A stretch of 64,000 bases of DNA, taken from NCBI RefSeq assembly GCF_000759855.1, contig NZ_JNAI01000010.1, positions 186,001 through 250,000 of the forward strand, written 5' to 3'. Below, piece by piece: positions 56,545 to 63,733 of this stretch; positions within the stretch are counted from its first letter, which is position 1; each line of letters starts with the position of its first letter. Source of the DNA: Prochlorococcus marinus str. MIT 9107. Lineage in GTDB: Bacteria; Cyanobacteriota; Cyanobacteriia; PCC-6307; Cyanobiaceae. Below the pieces are notes generated by a model. It did not search any database. It was given only the letters and a program-made list of their open reading frames with translations, and was not told where the DNA came from. The position numbers were made by a program, and so were the translations under genes.

Positions 56545-57216
56545 TTGTTTATTACTGTTTGCGGTCAAAAAGGAGGAGTAGCTAAAACCTGTACAAGTGT
56601 TCACCTTGCAAGCGTTTGGCATTCTGAAGGCAAAAAAGTTTGCATAGTGGATGCAGACAAAAATAGATCAGCATTAGCGTACGCATCAAGAGGTAATCTT
56701 CCATTTCCCGTTTTCCCAGTAAGTTCAGCTGCAAAATCATCAAGATCATCAGAAATTGTTATTACTGATGGCCAAGCTAGCAGTGATCAAGAAGAGCTAA
56801 AACATCTAGCATATGGATCTGATTTAGTAATCTTACCAACTACTGCAAAAGCAAGATCAGTAGAATTGACTGTTGAATTAGCTTCTTTATTAGGAAATTT
56901 AAAAGTAAACCATGCGGTAGTAATTGTAAAAGTAGATTTCAGACAGCAAAAAGCAGCCCAACAAGCTAAACAGGCTTTGGAAAATTTTGGTTTACACGTT
57001 TTTGATACATTTATTCCTTTACTTTCAGCTTTTGATAAAGCAGAAGCATCTGGCAATGCCGTTTTTGAAGCTGTTGACGATTTAGGTAGATCAGATCCCC
57101 GTCGAATGACGGGATGGTCTGCCTATTGTTCAATTGCATCTCAAATTCCATGCCTGATTTCGAAAAACTTATCCAACACCAACAACTTAAACAGCCAAAA
57201 ACCAATCAGCGCTTAA
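56545..57216 (+). CDS. Orphan ParA/MinD-like P-loop ATPase
   Basis: The 223-residue protein opens FITVCGQKGGVAKTCTSVHL, the deviant Walker A of the ParA family. DADKNRSALAYA, an IVITDGQASSDQEEL segment near the usual Walker B position and the C-terminal TFIPLLSAFDKAEASGNAVF follow. No parB or carboxysome gene is nearby. The start is a TTG. The 3' end overlaps the next gene by 67 bp in another frame. Confidence 0.87.
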   Translation: MFITVCGQKGGVAKTCTSVHLASVWHSEGKKVCIVDADKNRSALAYASRGNLPFPVFPVSSAAKSSRSSEIVITDGQASSDQEELKHLAYGSDLVILPTTAKARSVELTVELASLLGNLKVNHAVVIVKVDFRQQKAAQQAKQALENFGLHVFDTFIPLLSAFDKAEASGNAVFEAVDDLGRSDPRRMTGWSAYCSIASQIPCLISKNLSNTNNLNSQKPISA

Positions 57217-57392
57217 AAGTAGTTGACTCATCTAATTTTGAAAAAGAAAAAAAGGAACAACCAGTAATTCAGAAAAATGGAATTATAGTTAACTTTTTTG
57301 GAGGTTTTATTGGTTCTGTAATTGGAACTTCAACAATTCTTTTCCTTTATATAAATAATTATCTACCAGTAGATCTAATCAAGCTTAAGTAG
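57150..57392 (+). CDS. Small tail-anchored partner of orphan ParA, unknown function
   Basis: From the ATG at 57150 the product is 80 residues: a polar, lysine-rich N-terminus and a C-terminal helix (GGFIGSVIGTSTILFLYI). It lies within one transcript with parA and overlaps it by 67 bp. Its stop TAG (57390-57392) falls inside the first argJ-end-like repeat that opens the island. Confidence 0.6.
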   Translation: MPDFEKLIQHQQLKQPKTNQRLKVVDSSNFEKEKKEQPVIQKNGIIVNFFGGFIGSVIGTSTILFLYINNYLPVDLIKLK

Positions 57393-57405
57393 TATATTCG
57401 CTATT
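57385..57405 (-). repeat. argJ-end direct repeat, copy 1 (left border of island)
   Basis: On the minus strand this reads AAT AGC GAA TAT ACT ACT TAA, which encodes NSEYTT-stop, the C-terminus of argJ. It holds the 14-bp core GTATATTCGCTATT (plus strand, 57392-57405) and differs from the argJ end at one base in 21, a synonymous change. It marks the left border of the island. I interpret it as an attachment site. Confidence 0.8.
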
Positions 57406-57433
57406 CATTGCTATATAAAGACAATCTCTATAA

Positions 57434-57490
57434 TTGCTTGCGATCACTTACTTTCATAAGTGAATACAACTGTAAGCAAACTGTAAGCAA
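57434..57490. repeat. Segment A left iterons (GTAAGCAA)
   Basis: Two perfect tandem copies of ACTGTAAGCAA lie at 57469-57479 and 57480-57490, and an inverted near-copy (TTGCTTGCGAT) at 57434-57444. A matching ATCGTAAGCAA lies at the other end of the segment (59305-59315). A CACTTA/TAAGTG inverted repeat at 57445-57462 lies between them. Position inside the border repeat suggests recombinase arm sites. Confidence 0.55.
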
Positions 57491-57582
57491 CAGAACATGC
57501 GTTCTGAAACAGTAAATTAAACAAAAAAGTAAAATATTGGCATTATGTCTTATCGGAAATTATGTTTCTTATAAGTTAAAGT

Positions 57583-58105
57583 TCAAGCAAAAAGAGATGT
57601 CTCAATCCCACTTTCTTCTTTTAGTTCCGCAAGGGAATGAACTTCCATATTGGTGGTAAACCAGTTTTCTGTGGTCCCTTCTGCAAGTCCTATTTTTTCT
57701 TTTAACCATCTCTTAAATTCATTTTCTACATTTAAAACTAGTTGACCATTTTATAGGACCTATTTTGTCAACCTCTTTCCATCCTTTAGATTTATGAGTT
57801 TGCATTCTGGTAATTATGTCATTAGTGATTCCAATTTGTTGTTCATTTTTTCTTCTCATCAAATAAAACTATGCAGGTTTTTCTGGATTAAATCCATATT
57901 CTGCACAAATGGGACATCCATAACCATGAGAGGTTCTATTGGTTAATGTTGCCTTCCAAGTATGTCCCTCCTTACATTTCCAAGGCATCTTTTTACCACT
58001 TCCATAAGTAACAGTTGATGGATCCCAACCATCTGCTTCTGCTGCTAATTTAGGAAACTTTGTCTCTAAATCATTAATACCTTTTTCTGGGATGGATGAA
58101 GGCAT
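57583..58105 (-). pseudogene. Decayed zinc-ribbon + GIY-YIG-like protein gene
   Basis: The reading frame starts at the ATG at 58105 with a zinc-ribbon unit (MPWKCKEGHTWKATL...YGCPICAEYGF). It stops at TAG 57869-57871, where homologues I recall have Trp (KPA-W-FYLM). The same frame resumes with FYLM...QQIGITNDIITRMQTHKSKGW, a GIY-YIG-related segment, then shifts frame near 57735. The third piece (VENEFKRWLKEKIGL...ENWFTTN, ending at 57583) is in another frame. So one nonsense change and one frameshift disrupt a single ancestral gene. Confidence 0.8.
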
Positions 58106-58133
58106 ATAAAATTTAATGCAATTAATGAATTTT

Positions 58134-58259
58134 TTAATAATGTGGTGGTTCTGATTCTTGTGGAGGGGAATAAGTATTATCATTACTTTTTTCCTTCTTT
58201 CTGAAATACTCATCGGATGGGTCTAATCCATCATTATCGTAATTTCGTTCTTTTTCCAT
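58134..58259 (-). CDS. Small acidic/proline-rich protein, unknown function
   Basis: A 41-residue hydrophilic ORF (NDGLDPSDEYFRKKEKS, then YSPPQESEPPHY). Its ATG shares one base with the stop of the thiamine-binding-like gene, a sign of coupled translation. No family recognised. Island segment A. Confidence 0.45.
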   Translation of the reverse strand: MEKERNYDNDGLDPSDEYFRKKEKSNDNTYSPPQESEPPHY

Positions 58260-58552
58260 TATTTATCTAATACACTTTTTACTTTATCTGAGAATTTTTG
58301 TTCTTTATCAATTCTAGTATTAACTTTCATTGTTGTATAAATTCTAGGCGCACCTTTTGAATGAATTTTTTTATGGCACTTTTTAACACATTCAAATACT
58401 GTATCCCAATCTCCCTCTATTGCAGTTCCATTCGCTCCTAATTGATAGTTAAGACCTTCATTTTTGATAACTTCAATACACTCTTTTATATAAGGAGATA
58501 GGGAAGTTCCAACTCCAATAGGGACTAAGCATAAGTCAATACTTACAAACAT
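58259..58552 (-). CDS. MTH1187/YkoF (DUF77) thiamine-binding-like protein
   Basis: The 97-residue protein has VSIDLCLVPIGVGTSLSPYI, EGLNYQLGANGTAIEGDWDTVF and the C-terminal RIYTTMKVNTRID, the order seen in the PF01910 family, which binds thiamine or its pyrimidine in some members. It appears intact. It is the only recognisable complete metabolic cargo of island segment A. Confidence 0.85.
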   Translation of the reverse strand: MFVSIDLCLVPIGVGTSLSPYIKECIEVIKNEGLNYQLGANGTAIEGDWDTVFECVKKCHKKIHSKGAPRIYTTMKVNTRIDKEQKFSDKVKSVLDK

Positions 58553-58653
58553 AATTTTTTCCTATTTTGATAAATCTAAACATTCATATTCTAAATGCTA
58601 ATGTCGATAGAATTTAGCAAAGATAATCAGTAAAAGTTTACTAAAAATAAAAT

Positions 58654-58677
58654 AAGAGGGCATTTGTTTGCCCTCTT
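58654..58677 (-). terminator. Rho-independent terminator
   Basis: A perfect 9-bp stem (AAGAGGGCA and TGCCCTCTT) with a TTTGTT loop is followed on the minus strand by ATTTTATTTTTAG. On the plus strand no T-run follows, so it acts on leftward transcription, ending the candidate RNA upstream of it. Confidence 0.75.
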
Positions 58678-58800
58678 CGAGTCGTATGCACCTCGCTGTC
58701 CACAAAGTCGATGAAGTGCTTTTGACTCCTGGATTATTTCTACTCCTAGTTAATGGGGAAAGATAGTCGTGACAACCACAAAGCACTTTTACTCGGGTAA
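58654..58800 (-). ncRNA. Candidate structured small RNA
   Basis: Leftward transcription would give an RNA whose 9-nt arms AAGTGCTTT (minus, 58780-58788) and AAAGCACTT (58714-58722) pair around a 57-nt loop, followed by a short region and the terminator. CTTTGTGG also occurs twice, on both sides of that loop. There is no convincing ORF: the open frame across it runs through the terminator stem. The start is a guess. Confidence 0.45.
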
Positions 58801-58861
58801 TAATACTCTATGAATTTCAAGTTAATAGGAGGACAATATAGATATAGATCTAGGAGGTCTT

Positions 58862-59044
58862 ATGAAACTATTCAATCAATTTAACATTCTTCCAAGATAC
58901 CTAACTGCGTTTAATTATGCAGGATTAAATCTCAACGAAACCCCAAAAGAACTTGAGAAATGCACCCCTGAGTTTCAAAACTTTTGGGAGAAAGAATGTA
59001 GAGAACATCCAACAAATCAAAATTGTTTAATTTACTGCGACTGA
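58862..59044 (+). CDS. Small protein with strong Shine-Dalgarno, unknown function
   Basis: A 60-residue ORF from ATG at 58862, preceded by AGGAGG 4 bp upstream of the start. The product ends in a cysteine-bearing stretch (EKECREHPTNQNCLIYCD) with four cysteines in total. Family unknown. The initiation region AGGAGGT-TT-ATGAAACT is almost the same as that of the next gene. Confidence 0.6.
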   Translation: MKLFNQFNILPRYLTAFNYAGLNLNETPKELEKCTPEFQNFWEKECREHPTNQNCLIYCD

Positions 59045-59082
59045 GTTATTAATTTTTAGTCTTTATTAAAAAAGGAGGTTTT

Positions 59083-59250
59083 ATGAAACTAACTACTCCA
59101 TTCACCATTCTCAATCGAAAATTAAATGAGATGGATTTAATTAGAGATGCAATGAAAAAAAGAATATTAGCAACTGAAAGATTGCATGATGATTATAGAA
59201 AAATGTTCAAAAACAAAGAACATCCAACCATAGTTAACGGTTATGTTTAA
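59083..59250 (+). CDS. Small basic helical protein with strong Shine-Dalgarno, unknown function
   Basis: A 55-residue ORF with AGGAGG 4 bp before the ATG. The product is helical and charged (DLIRDAMKKRILATERLHDD). It shares the leader AGGAGGT.TTATGAAACTA with the previous gene, but the proteins differ beyond the first residues. Family unknown. Confidence 0.55.
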   Translation: MKLTTPFTILNRKLNEMDLIRDAMKKRILATERLHDDYRKMFKNKEHPTIVNGYV

Positions 59251-59304
59251 CCTAGTACAACTAAATTTAATTAGTAATAATAAGTCCTAATTTAATTTAA
59301 GCAG

Positions 59305-59315
59305 ATCGTAAGCAA
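59305..59315 (+). repeat. Segment A right iteron (ATCGTAAGCAA)
   Basis: This copy matches the left iterons of segment A (ACTGTAAGCAA, and ATCGCAAGCAA on the minus strand). It lies about 45 bp inside repeat copy 2. Confidence 0.45.
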
Positions 59316-59360
59316 CATATATATCATCTTCAGCTCTATTCCTATAACTGCGTTTTGACG

Positions 59361-59390
59361 TTAAGTAGTATATTCGCTATTAATTTCCAC
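59361..59390 (-). repeat. argJ-end direct repeat, copy 2
   Basis: On the minus strand it reads GTG GAA ATT AAT AGC GAA TAT and then ACT ACT TAA, which encodes VEINSEYTT-stop. It differs from argJ at three third-codon positions (GTG/GTT, ATT/ATA, ACT/ACG), all synonymous. The core GTATATTCGCTATT is at 59368-59381. Border of segments A and B. Confidence 0.85.
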
Positions 59391-59455
59391 CTTTGGCATT
59401 TAGTATATCCACCTTGCTGTAATCCATTGCTATTACTTAAGTGAATTTTTAGAAA

Positions 59456-59577
59456 ATAATCACACCATAATCACAGTCGGCAAAATAATAATCACAGTTT
59501 TAGATTTTTAAATAAGAACCATTGAAATAATTAGGATTAATTTCTGTGATCTTAGGAGTAATCACAGAATAATCACA
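59456..59577. repeat. Segment B left iterons (TAATCACA)
   Basis: Five direct copies of (A/G)TAATCACA(G) start at 59456, 59467, 59488, 59558 and 59569, and an inverted CTGTGAT lies at 59544-59550. The same motif occurs near the right end of segment B at 60946 and 60957. Spacing is irregular, unlike CRISPR. Confidence 0.7.
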
Positions 59578-59722: not shown

Positions 59723-60946
59723 ATGAAAAACTTGTCAAAAAAACTTTTTAGTTCTCTTTTTACTTCAACCTTACTATTATCCCCTTTTGCATCATTTTCT
59801 GGAGAGGTTACTACTAATACTTCAGATTTAGGATTTTTTGTCGCTGAAGACCCAACCAAAGTTAACAGTGGTGGCAATACTACTTCAAACTTGTACAAAC
59901 TTAGCTCAGATGGTGCAGTTACGCTAATGAAAGAAGATATCTTTCCAGATGTTGGAACCAATTCATTTACATCAAGTAATTTCACAATAGATGAGTCTGA
60001 AGGAAAAATATATTTCCTTGAAGATGATAGAGGTGGCGGTGCCGCAAGAAGATATAGAAAATATGATATTGAAAATAATGAATTTGAAGGCTACATTACT
60101 GTGACTGGATTACCTAGTGGGGCGGTACCAATAAATATAGGAGTCATCAATAAATTAAATAACACAATTGAAAAAAAATGTGAATCAACAGATAGTGACT
60201 GTGATGATGCTTCAGATACAAAGTTTGTTTCATTAGGAGGAGAGGGCACTGATGAATTACTAAGAATTGATAATGATGGAATTAGTCAAGGAGGATCAAC
60301 TGGTAAGAGCCTTGTGAAATATGTAGGAGATGAACTTCATATTGGTGAAAACTCTTGGATTACGAAAGAAGAAAACGGTAGGCAAAAAGTATATGCAAAA
60401 GATGCGGCAGGAAATCCAATTCCTATTGATTACACAAACGGAACTAAATTATTAATAAATGGAAGAGATGTAGAACAATCTATAAATAATGTTGGAGCAT
60501 TAAGTGCTGCTTTAACTGGACTACCAACAGTACCAACTGACACAACTCTCGCATGTGGTTTTGGAACTGGAACTCATGGAGGAGATTTTGCTTTTGCTGG
60601 TGGTTGCGCTTCTAAAGTAAATGAAACACTATCAGTAAACTACGCAGCGTCAATGACTATGCCTGGACAAGATTATGCGGGTGATTTTGAAGATACTTTC
60701 TCTGCAAGAGCAGGATTTGTTTGGAAATTAGGAAAACCAGTAAATTCAGAACTTATAAGTATAAAAGAAAAAGAATTCCAAACAAAAATTATCTCACTTG
60801 AAGAAAAGAACCAAGAACTTTTAGCAAGATTAGAGAAACTAGAAAAAGTAGCATTAGGTAAAGTCGGATCGAAAGATTTAGCATCTAATACTATTAATTA
60901 CCAAGAGATGAATAAAGGATTAACCTTCAAAAAAATTAGTAAATAA
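59723..60946 (+). CDS. Surface protein with YadA-like anchor and C-terminal coiled coil
   Basis: The 407-residue protein has a signal peptide (about 1-26) and a beta-rich passenger (about 27-205) with strands like NLYKLSSDGAVTL. A linker (IHIGENSWITKEENGRQK) leads to KLLINGRDVEQSINNVGALS. The segment at about 260-340 (LPTVPTDTTLACGFGTGTHG...FSARAGFVWKLG) resembles the four-strand YadA anchor of trimeric autotransporters. A coiled coil (LEEKNQELLARLEKLEKVAL) then follows, which is unusual. Homologous to the broken gene in segment C. Single gene of segment B. Confidence 0.6.
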   Translation: MKNLSKKLFSSLFTSTLLLSPFASFSGEVTTNTSDLGFFVAEDPTKVNSGGNTTSNLYKLSSDGAVTLMKEDIFPDVGTNSFTSSNFTIDESEGKIYFLEDDRGGGAARRYRKYDIENNEFEGYITVTGLPSGAVPINIGVINKLNNTIEKKCESTDSDCDDASDTKFVSLGGEGTDELLRIDNDGISQGGSTGKSLVKYVGDELHIGENSWITKEENGRQKVYAKDAAGNPIPIDYTNGTKLLINGRDVEQSINNVGALSAALTGLPTVPTDTTLACGFGTGTHGGDFAFAGGCASKVNETLSVNYAASMTMPGQDYAGDFEDTFSARAGFVWKLGKPVNSELISIKEKEFQTKIISLEEKNQELLARLEKLEKVALGKVGSKDLASNTINYQEMNKGLTFKKISK

Positions 60947-60966
60947 TAATCACAGTATTATCACAG
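60946..60966 (+). repeat. Segment B right iterons
   Basis: ATAATCACAG at 60946-60955 and ATTATCACAG at 60957-60966 match the left iterons. A shorter ATCACA lies at 61026-61031, close to repeat copy 3. The first copy starts at the stop codon of the surface protein gene. Confidence 0.65.
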
Positions 60967-61035
60967 TCTCAAAAGATGTGTATTCTTTTTGAGATTTTAT
61001 ATAGTTATATCAATTGATCCCAAAGATCACATTTT

Positions 61036-61068
61036 CTACGTCGTATATTCGCTATTTATTTCAACATA
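61036..61068 (-). repeat. argJ-end direct repeat, copy 3
   Basis: On the minus strand this encodes YVEINSEYTT-stop. A 29-bp stretch (61040-61068) is identical to the argJ end (62499-62527). Beyond that, the last codons read ACG ACG TAG against ACG ACT TAA in argJ, again without changing the protein. It marks the border of segments B and C. Confidence 0.9.
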
Positions 61069-61110
61069 GAAGACAAAAGTCAGTTATACCAATGGTTCTC
61101 AAGGATTAGA

Positions 61111-61194
61111 TTAGTGTTTTATTAGTGTTTTATTTTGATTTTTCTCGCTGAAAGTAAATGCTATGACTAGAACAATGTTTTATTAGTGTTTTAT
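61111..61194 (+). repeat. Segment C left iterons (TTAGTGTTTTAT)
   Basis: TTAGTGTTTTAT starts at 61111, 61122 and 61183, with a partial ATGTTTTAT at 61175. The block 61122-61194 is matched at the right end by 62376-62448: both are 73 bp long, with the outer parts conserved and the 33-bp middle diverged. Confidence 0.75.
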
Positions 61195-61311
61195 GAAAGA
61201 ATAAATTTGCAGTTTACTTAACAGAAAAATGAACGATAAGTCTTAGTTCTTAAAACAAAAGAAGCGTTTATCAAAAAATCATGGAAACTAAGAGAAAACT
61301 AAATTAAAGGC

Positions 61312-62366
61312 ATGAAAAAGTTATTAGCATTATCTTTAATCGGATTTTCTCTAATACTTGGTTCTAATTCCGCAAAAGCAGATTGGGATTATTGGGGTAT
61401 CTCGGATAATGGAAAAAGTGTGAATACAATTAATTCACAAACAGGAGAAGGTACCAAAGTATTTGATGCTACCCCATACTTAACAACGCAATATGATTTG
61501 TTCCAAATTCTTGACGCTCCCACTAAAGATGAAGTGCTTCTAAAACACATAAAATATTCTGCTGATCCTGTGTACTACTTATTTAATAACGAAACAAAAT
61601 CTTTGGAAGAAACAACTACTCCTTGGCATCAATCTTATGGTAATACTGGAGTCCTTGACGAAATCAAGAGACCAAATATTATTTCAGATAACGCAGGCAA
61701 TTCTCAAATACAAATAAATGGAAAAAAACTTATTGAACATAAAAATGATGGTGCCATTCATATTGGTGAGAATTCTGCTGTATTTAAAGAAGAGAATGGG
61801 AGAGAAAAATTTTGGGCACAAGATGCTAATGGCAAATCTATTCCGATTGATATAACCAATGGTTCCAAATTGTTAATTAATGGCAGAGATGTAGAACAAT
61901 CAATTAATAATGTTGGTGCATTAATGCTGCTTTAACTGGACTACCAACAGTTCCTACTGACACAACTATTGCATGCGGATTAGGAACAGGGACGCATGGA
62001 GGAGATTTCGCTTTTTCTGGCGGTTGCACTTCTAAGGTTAATGAAAAACTATCAATTAATTATGCAGCATCTATGACTATGCCAGGACAAGATTACGCAG
62101 GTGATTTTGAAGATCAGTTTTCTGCTAGAGCAGGATTTGTTTGGAAATTAGGGAAGGCCACAAAACCTTCTCAAATTACTATGAAAGATAAAAAAGTAAT
62201 GGAAAAAAAAATTGAATCACTTGAAAAGGAAAACAAAACAATACTTTCCAAAAATCAAAAATTAGAGAATAAACTTTCTACCTTGATGGCAAGATTAGAA
62301 AGACTAGAAAAAGTCGCTTTAGGAGATCTCAAGTCTAAAGATTTGGCAGTTTATTCACTCAAATAA
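61312..62366 (+). pseudogene. Frameshifted surface protein gene, paralogue of the segment B gene
   Basis: The first part (from ATG 61312) has a signal peptide (LLALSLIGFSLILGSNSAKA) and a different passenger from segment B. It rejoins it at IHIGENSAVFKEENGREK and NGRDVEQSINNVGAL. There GCATTA-ATGCTGC replaces GCATTA-AGTGCTGC, a loss of one G near 61924. This gives a stop at 61933-61935. The second part continues in the other frame with AALTGLPTVPTDTT...FSARAGFVWKLG and a longer coiled coil ending at 62366. A programmed or phase-variable shift is possible but no mononucleotide run is present. Confidence 0.8.
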
Positions 62367-62375
62367 ACTCAATAT

Positions 62376-62448
62376 TTAGTGTTTTATTTTGATTTTTATT
62401 CCTAAGATTACCTGTTACCTCTAAAGCACTGTTTTATTAGTGTTTCAT
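62376..62448 (+). repeat. Segment C right iterons
   Basis: TTAGTGTTTTAT at 62376-62387, with TTTTGATTTTT after it as on the left, and TTAGTGTTTCAT at 62437-62448 preceded by GTTTTA as on the left. Same order and 73-bp length as 61122-61194. Confidence 0.75.
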
Positions 62449-62494: not shown

Positions 62495-62527
62495 TTAAGT
62501 CGTATATTCGCTATTTATTTCAACATA
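62495..62527 (-). repeat. argJ-end direct repeat, copy 4 (within intact argJ)
   Basis: The last ten codons of argJ plus stop (YVEINSEYTT, 62495-62527) form the right border of the island. This copy lies in the working gene and would be the chimera left after integration of segment C. Confidence 0.85.
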
Positions 62528-63733
62528 CTTTTTAGACAAATCACATCCCCATGCAGTGCCCTTGGATTCGCCAGAATTCAGGTCAAGTATAATATGCAAA
62601 ATATCGTCTACTAAATATTTACCTTTCATTCTTGATTGCATATAGTGGATCACTTTTGATGAATCATATTGTATGAAATTTCCCTTTTTCAAAATCTGAT
62701 AATCACCTATAAACAAATCGACTTCATTAAGATTAAATTTAATACCAGAATTACCTGCTGCTGAGATAATTCTTCCCCAATTTGGATCACAGCCATGTAT
62801 TGCAGTTTTTACCAATGCAGAATTACATATAGATTTTGCAACCATAATTGCATCATCAATATTTTTTGCTCCTTTAACTAAAACTTCTAATAAACAATTT
62901 GCTCCCTCTCCATCTCTTGCAATATTTTTTGCCAAGTTTTGACACACAATATCAATTCCTTTTTGGATGATTGGAAAAAATTTTTTATCAATTTTATCTC
63001 CTGCATTTATTCCAACGAATGCATCATTTGTGCTTGTCTCTCCATCAACTGATATTGCGTTAAAAGATTTTTGAACGGCAATGGAAATCATTTCATCCCA
63101 TTCTTCTTTATCAATACCCGCATCACATGTTAGAAAAGCAAGCATTGTAGCCATATTGGGATAAATCATTCCTGATCCTTTTGCCAATCCTGCTATTTTT
63201 ATTTTTTTACCTTGAATAATCGTCTCTATTAAAACTTTTTTCGGAGTCAAATCAGTAGTTAAAATTGCTTCTGCTGCATTTTGAAAATTATTAATTTTTA
63301 AATCACTCACTAAATTCGGTAAATTTTTTACTAAATTATTTATTTCTATAGGGACACCGATTAAACCAGTTGAGCACATCAAAACTTCCTCTTCTTTTAT
63401 TCCTAAAAGTTTTGCAATCTTTGCTGTAGCAATTTGAAAATGTTTAAGTCCAAGATTTCCTGTGCATGCATTTGCTTGTCCAGAATTAATTAGTATTGCG
63501 CGTAGAAAACCTGAAGATTTTTTAATCCTTTTCTCAGAAATATCTACACAAGAAGCGCGAACTATTGATTGGGTAAACTTACCGCTAAAGATGCTTCCTT
63601 CTGGAGCAAGTATAAGTGCTAAATCTTTCTTATTAGAAGCTTTTAATCCAGCAGATATTCCAGCAAAAAGAAAACCGCTGGGTGTTGCATTACCTTCATC
63701 AACAAATGACCAAATGGAATCAGACTGGCTCAA
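62495..63733 (-). CDS. argJ: Bifunctional glutamate N-acetyltransferase / ornithine acetyltransferase
   Basis: ArgJ transfers acetyl groups in arginine synthesis. The 412-residue precursor self-cleaves before Thr in MATMLAF (after GSGMIYPN), giving two chains. Other motifs are GVALP-like opening GNATPSGFLFAGISAGLK, NSGQANACTG, NDAFVGIN and HGCDPNWGRI. It appears intact, including the C-terminus VEINSEYTT that matches the repeats. It is divergent from coaE across 75 bp. Confidence 0.95.
   Translation of the reverse strand: MSQSDSIWSFVDEGNATPSGFLFAGISAGLKASNKKDLALILAPEGSIFSGKFTQSIVRASCVDISEKRIKKSSGFLRAILINSGQANACTGNLGLKHFQIATAKIAKLLGIKEEEVLMCSTGLIGVPIEINNLVKNLPNLVSDLKINNFQNAAEAILTTDLTPKKVLIETIIQGKKIKIAGLAKGSGMIYPNMATMLAFLTCDAGIDKEEWDEMISIAVQKSFNAISVDGETSTNDAFVGINAGDKIDKKFFPIIQKGIDIVCQNLAKNIARDGEGANCLLEVLVKGAKNIDDAIMVAKSICNSALVKTAIHGCDPNWGRIISAAGNSGIKFNLNEVDLFIGDYQILKKGNFIQYDSSKVIHYMQSRMKGKYLVDDILHIILDLNSGESKGTAWGCDLSKKYVEINSEYTT

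Follow-up and report, generated by a model that had tools for sequence, protein, structure and literature searches.

In Prochlorococcus marinus MIT 9107 (genome 1.70 Mb; contig at 31% GC), the argJ 3′ end is a hotspot for site-specific integration, and in the 64,000-nucleotide stretch analysed here (the window) it carries a tandem array of three segments, A, B and C. The reading that we favour, and consider probable, is that B and C represent integrase-less, CIME-like mini-elements that are moved by integrases in trans and deliver interchangeable surface proteins of the trimeric autotransporter type. In this mechanism, B and C would be two site-specific mini-elements inserted one behind the other, head to tail, into an attB that the argJ 3′ end provides. 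In each cassette, the single trimeric-autotransporter-type gene would encode a Sec signal peptide, then a variable passenger and a stalk, a YadA-like outer-membrane anchor that stays constant, and a coiled-coil tail. Excision and insertion would most likely be carried out in trans by integrases of other argJ-site elements, as in CIME-style accretion, and homologous recombination over the conserved anchor DNA would swap passengers and tails between cassettes. The outcome in the population would be a surface protein that is exchanged from strain to strain.

The segments are delimited by 32-nt direct repeats at 57386, 59362, 61037 and 62496, the last copy being the argJ 3′ end itself (...EYTT stop). 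The features that define the site are as follows.

56545..57392, plus strand: ParA-like gene (CbiA, PF01656) and an overlapping 92-aa ORF, the conserved left flank of the hotspot
57386..57417, plus strand: left att copy (attL of segment A), 81% to the reference repeat
57418..59361, no strand assigned: segment A, with a thiamine-binding protein (Thiamine_BP, PF01910), a zinc-finger protein (DUF4379) and small ORFs
59362..59393, plus strand: att copy between segments A and B, from the repeat search
61037..61068, plus strand: att copy between segments B and C, 97% to the argJ-end copy
62496..62527, plus strand: att copy formed by the argJ 3′ end, the right boundary, from the repeat search and hotspot comparison
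62495..63733, minus strand: argJ, an intact ORF whose 3′ end is the attachment site and which adjoins the array in all sampled hotspots

When the 23-nt att core was searched with up to three mismatches, these four copies were the only matches in the whole genome. The borders consist of direct repeats of the target, and the repeat search found no terminal inverted repeats at the ends of the cassettes.

Of 94 sampled hotspots in which the left flank (the ParA-like gene) and the right flank (argJ) were both present, 31 were empty or nearly empty. This fraction is not an occupancy rate, since genomes with several att copies or with anchor genes were sampled preferentially. Most empty sites had 175 bp between the ParA-like stop codon and the argJ end, and a single att copy at +179 from the parA end. 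Most occupied hotspots had their left att likewise at +179 (+182 or +185 in a few), as does the window with its copy at 57386, and their right copy was the argJ end. This pattern, with a left att at constant position in occupied sites and one att copy in empty ones, is characteristic of site-specific insertion. In total, 100 att-bounded segments were delimited at argJ, compared with a background of 3 calls per 1.88 Mb (flank and opposite strand) with a stricter att caller. Single-gene YadA-anchor cassettes accounted for 45 (1165–2518 bp), all in one orientation, read towards argJ, with up to four in tandem (genomes G059 and G171).

Segments B and C each contain one gene of this kind.

59723..60946, plus strand: gene B, intact, 407 aa, with signal peptide, passenger, stalk, YadA-like anchor (268–333) and coiled-coil tail
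61312..61935, plus strand: gene C, 5′ part, with signal peptide, a different passenger and stalk; the frame stops inside the anchor
61918..61939, plus strand: one-base deletion in C relative to B, near 61,924 (B equivalent 60497)
62073..62366, plus strand: gene C, 3′ part, with the end of the anchor and the tail, in another frame

The initial annotation had described these adjacent genes as sharing everything from the HIGENS motif through the anchor while differing in signal peptides and passengers, and the comparison bears this out. The shared DNA runs from about 60336 in B and 61757 in C (HIGENS) through the YadA_anchor domain, and is seen as repeats D1 (231 nt, 86%) and D2 (139 nt, 76%), 1420 nt apart; in B, the anchor matches Pfam YadA_anchor (PF03895) at 26.7 bits (cut-off 22.7). 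To call the constant regions near-identical was an overstatement: tblastn of the queried constant region gave 77% (residues 2–57) and 67% (56–184), although the last barrel strands are nearly identical. Windowed nucleotide identity was 70–92% to approximately the anchor end, dropped to 38–64% in the tail and recovered at the 3′ end; the passengers, at about 57%, are at the level expected of a forced global alignment of AT-rich DNA. Both genes have a charged, coil-like tail of 40–80 aa after the anchor. The further proposal that two elements at one site deliver alternative surface proteins stands in part. B and C are indeed separate genes on separate elements at one att site, each att-bounded and with its own end-repeat type, but C is frameshifted by a deletion within GCATTAATGCTGC (window ~61918–61930), its ORF (61312–61935) terminating right after SINNVGAL, so that B alone yields an intact product in this strain.

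Read across relatives, the sequences point to modular proteins with clear mosaics. Among 42 proteins, median pairwise identity was 21% for the passenger, 81% for the anchor and 45% for the tail, and passenger classes differed by eye. Some are propeller-like and distantly related to one another, one is a TVPAGT class, and others have true YadA-head repeats; the expected passenger diversity was thus found, in place of a single orthologous family. The B passenger is 97% identical to that of L089 (tail 57%), whereas the B tail is 94% identical to that of L085 (passenger 19%), and one passenger is paired with three tails (L085, L086 and L087). The shared anchor DNA is long enough to recombine. The passengers of B and C have weak profile similarity to one another (hhalign 72%). 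AlphaFold2 predicted the B monomer with helix 257–264, four strands at 276–334 and helix 349–379 at low confidence (pLDDT 53), and the 5′ part of C as a β-rich monomer (pLDDT 78). β-Propellers ranked first in the fold matches of both models with weak scores, and the matches of B were used as support only because its model is of low confidence. A head with two blades per chain, which would make up a six-bladed propeller once three chains assemble, is a guess. A sequence search of solved structures returned no useful match.

In their domains, these proteins resemble trimeric autotransporter adhesins (type Vc, YadA family), with a YadA-like membrane anchor in B, a stalk and a variable head, and would form homotrimers displayed on the cell surface via BAM. 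PF03895 was above the cut-off in B and in the relatives L174, L182 and L198. No Pfam head domain was found in B or C; relatives do carry YadA head and stalk modules N-terminal to the anchor, as in L198 (YadA_head, PF05658) and in the repeated stalk modules of L092, L098 and L115. They differ from type Vc proteins in that most heads are small propeller-like domains, delivery is by mobile cassette and the anchor is not C-terminal: a tail of about 40–80 aa follows it in all relatives read to their end (in B, the predicted helix 349–379). In YadA, C-terminal residues matter for the BAM signal. Outer-membrane proteins carry this signal in the last, C-terminal strand of their barrel (PMC6604945), so that a constant coil-like tail beyond the anchor is a real departure. 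In several Prochlorococcus anchor proteins (L068, L104 and L081), tandem 42-nt repeats encode 14-aa β-roll repeats of the YadA-head type.

Anchor genes were present in 67 of the 266 genomes of the genus. In the fetched regions, they lay beside argJ at 44 loci (window included) and elsewhere at 15, and so mostly at the argJ end, in keeping with the initial annotation; element borders were present. Thirteen of the 15 loci away from argJ were flanked by tRNA-Leu or tRNA-Pro repeats or situated at those sites. At tRNA-Leu(TAA) and tRNA-Pro(TGG), part of the tRNA gene is duplicated around the anchor genes, and these cassettes have iterons of their own (by eye). One such tRNA-Pro locus, in the window's own genome (L122; G000:C7, about 28.0–28.5 kb), holds a degraded anchor gene with in-frame stops. 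The remaining cargo of argJ cassettes includes a thiamine-binding protein (as in segment A), a PEBP-family protein, restriction-enzyme-like and PD-(D/E)XK/trypsin proteins, methyltransferases, a DnaB-like helicase and, in two cases, a tyrosine integrase. The thiamine-binding gene of segment A (57869–58552; YkoF/MTH1187-like) recurs in several other sampled argJ arrays, with 91–97% protein identity in the cases measured.

An anchor gene also lies close to argJ in three other Cyanobiaceae genera (L218, L224 and L227), so the association is old. Its age would suit a history in which the YadA genes settled beside argJ long ago and were copied and reshuffled there through homologous recombination, the att-like repeats were left behind by unrelated integrations and the cassettes can no longer move; the anchors are similar enough for such recombination, mosaics exist, C is a pseudogene and other copies hold stops. 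We regard this history as quite unlikely, given that each YadA cassette is singly att-bounded, that the 31 empty hotspots have one att copy, that near-identical cores hold different content, that cassettes of unrelated cargo have iterons in common and that the same genes sit at tRNA sites with duplicated targets.

Mobile cassettes, as we favour, are consistent with the comparison of individual strains. Hotspots with flanks 98–99.6% identical had different content or none. In 8 of 17 comparable pairs, the cassette was more similar than the adjacent argJ core, for example 93.5 versus 77.8%, 82.8 versus 68.9% and 97.0 versus 91.4%. Cells thus appear to exchange their surface proteins one cassette at a time. 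IMG/VR and phage records yielded neither an excised circle nor a particle-borne copy. Viral origin or packaging was rejected, as IMG/VR held no relative of the anchor or the integrase and the phage records held none of the anchor; two exact att matches in IMG/VR were on phage contigs of 43% GC with unrelated genes, no argJ and no array gene, and were judged to be chance.

Each cassette has short direct repeats (iterons) that flank its gene on either side, immediately inward of the att copies. In the window, these are GTAAGCAA in A, AATCACAGT in B and TTAGTGTTTTAT in C. The arms of B and C are as follows.

59457..59577, plus strand: left-arm iterons of B, (TA)ATCACAG type, 5 copies, two pairs 11 bp apart
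60947..60967, plus strand: right-arm iterons of B, ATCACAGT, 2 copies 11 bp apart
61111..61194, plus strand: left-arm iterons of C, TTAGTGTTTTAT type, repeat D6
62376..62448, plus strand: right-arm iterons of C, D6, 78% to the left-arm block

These iterons are often 11 bp apart and, within the array, occur on the plus strand only, with one exception inside a gene. Across 94 segments, the longest word common to a segment's own two arms averaged 11.8 nt, compared with 8.93 (s.d. 0.21) when arms were re-paired, and 0 of 10,000 re-pairings scored as high; no motif was chosen for this test, and motif typing came later. AATCACAG was found in 49 + 17 copies on the plus strand and 0 on the minus strand. 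Cassettes of unrelated cargo can have the same iteron type, and 27 of the 94 segments lacked a recognised type.

This arrangement matches integrase arm-type sites flanking a core, and by this analogy the iterons may be bound by an integrase. Their resemblance to the arm-type sites of a tyrosine-integrase attP suggests that the cassettes are most likely moved in trans by argJ-site integrases. The left-arm iterons are upstream of the gene, and a spacing of about one helical turn would also fit a regulator, so that they might instead be regulatory or replication sites, with mobility depending on the att core alone. We consider this unlikely, because iterons are found at both ends, in a single orientation and with unrelated cargo, including the integrase-bearing cassettes.

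Elements that share the argJ site do encode a candidate for this activity. A tyrosine integrase (PHROG 1; E values 2e-20 and 4e-19; L129 and L099) directly adjoins argJ in the argJ-site elements of genomes G082 and G088. It was found through array ORFs and PHROGs, its domain being too divergent for the Pfam PF00589 cut-off. Integrases occur in only 2 of the 100 argJ segments, and close relatives of this integrase in only those two of 266 genomes, at argJ in both. Both elements bear a sister iteron type, AATCACAC, which closely matches one arm type only; no helper integrase was found for the remaining arm types. In L099 (G088), a type-I YadA cassette lies between the left flank and the integrase element, abutting the latter. 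Each of the two elements also encodes a serine resolvase (L129:6033-6746 and L099:11237-11773). A domain scan of the window detected no tyrosine recombinase in segments A–C, and the argJ-type integrase was not found in the MIT 9107 genome.

The sole PF00589 match in that genome is a 389-aa tyrosine recombinase (L210:4682-5851; G000 contig C6), which is on a contig other than that of the array. Its gene is found in nearly all Prochlorococcus, between hemH-like and cobO/pyrH-like genes, and the protein has LRH and GHS...TYHHW motifs. Being genus-wide, and with these motifs, it could be imagined to work the cassettes in the manner of a chromosomal integron. Integron cassettes, too, are one-gene units arrayed in one orientation with a recombination site between them, yet here the target is the argJ end, no IntI lies beside the array and the att repeat lacks an attC-like fold (z +0.6 and −0.3), on which ground an integron reading was rejected. 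The missing hairpin, the distance of the 389-aa gene from the array and the use of the same argJ site by integrase-bearing elements make a host-encoded activity very unlikely. It is further disfavoured by the variety of iteron types among cassettes, which suggests several integrases.

Among mobile elements, the nearest class is that of CIMEs, with agreement in those features that could be tested. Classical CIMEs are 1.2–13 kb, att-flanked and without recombination genes, and accrete in tandem at gene 3′ ends (PMC7563491). The argJ cassettes are likewise att-flanked, lack recombination genes and form tandem arrays at a housekeeping-gene 3′ end, and in L099 a YadA cassette lies beside an integrase-bearing element at the same site. 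CIMEs are, however, defined as decayed ICEs or IMEs with miscellaneous cargo, whereas here one gene family occurs as single-gene cassettes that keep intact paired arm iterons. No conjugative partner was seen in these organisms, and no conjugation genes were recognised among the scanned array proteins, a subset of array ORFs. Within the genus, the nearest elements are tycheposons, which are 4–200 kb, integrate at tRNA genes and carry a tyrosine recombinase (PMC10872708). Both are site-specific cargo elements that remodel genomic islands, and sister YadA cassettes are found at tRNA genes. The argJ cassettes depart from tycheposons in size (1.2–2.5 kb) and in two defining features: the target is the end of a protein gene, a tRNA target being seen only at the sister loci at tRNA-Leu and tRNA-Pro, and segments A–C have no tyrosine recombinase of their own. 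Staphylococcal SCC likewise accumulate in tandem at a core-gene 3′ end, that of rlmH (orfX), and some of them lack a recombinase. SCC carry 20–60 kb and have large serine recombinases, compared with 1.2–2.5 kb for the argJ cassettes.

Three aspects are new: argJ as the target, a one-gene cassette of regular build with paired arm sites, and the delivery of surface proteins with a constant anchor and variable heads. Neither the argJ attachment site nor the YadA-anchor cassette proteins were described in the open-access literature searched, outside of which lay the main tycheposon paper. The site would bear on how Prochlorococcus varies its exposed surface and on what its phages and grazers recognise. 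A fixed site that gains, loses or re-heads one surface-protein gene at a time would be a concrete, countable target, whose occupants could be tallied in metagenomes and in single cells for correlation with phage host range. Such a site would further illustrate how very small genomes exchange single genes by site-specific recombination without carrying an integrase. A role of the cassettes in avoiding phages or grazers is plausible, and selection by either might act on them. More tentatively, and with some doubt, we propose a picocyanobacterial surface-adhesin cassette system, in which single-gene, integrase-less mobile cassettes that combine a constant anchor with interchangeable heads would form a pool shared across the population, occupy a few fixed sites (the argJ end, tRNA-Leu and tRNA-Pro), be moved in trans by arm-site-specific integrases and allow rapid surface change under phage or grazer pressure.

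Several other genes in and around the arrays were recorded. Several genomes have integrases of about 505 aa, some partial, at ~7–13 kb from argJ on its coaE side (G137:C1:75322, G009:C1:694140, G208:C10:5799, G238:C16:32699 and G123:C8:31430). They were set aside because their site is a different one; no tRNA was found near them in two regions (L211 and L212), and they perhaps mark a second protein-gene integration site. In L092:6085-10107 and L163, a large protein that matches Type IIG restriction-methylation models (PADLOC E 1e-145) is accompanied by a repeated 150–166-aa family; four argJ arrays encode the large protein. L095:8337-11222 encodes a 962-aa protein that combines a PD-(D/E)XK nuclease, a trypsin-like protease and TPR repeats, and related ORFs occur in several arrays; from its sequence, it looks like a defence protein.
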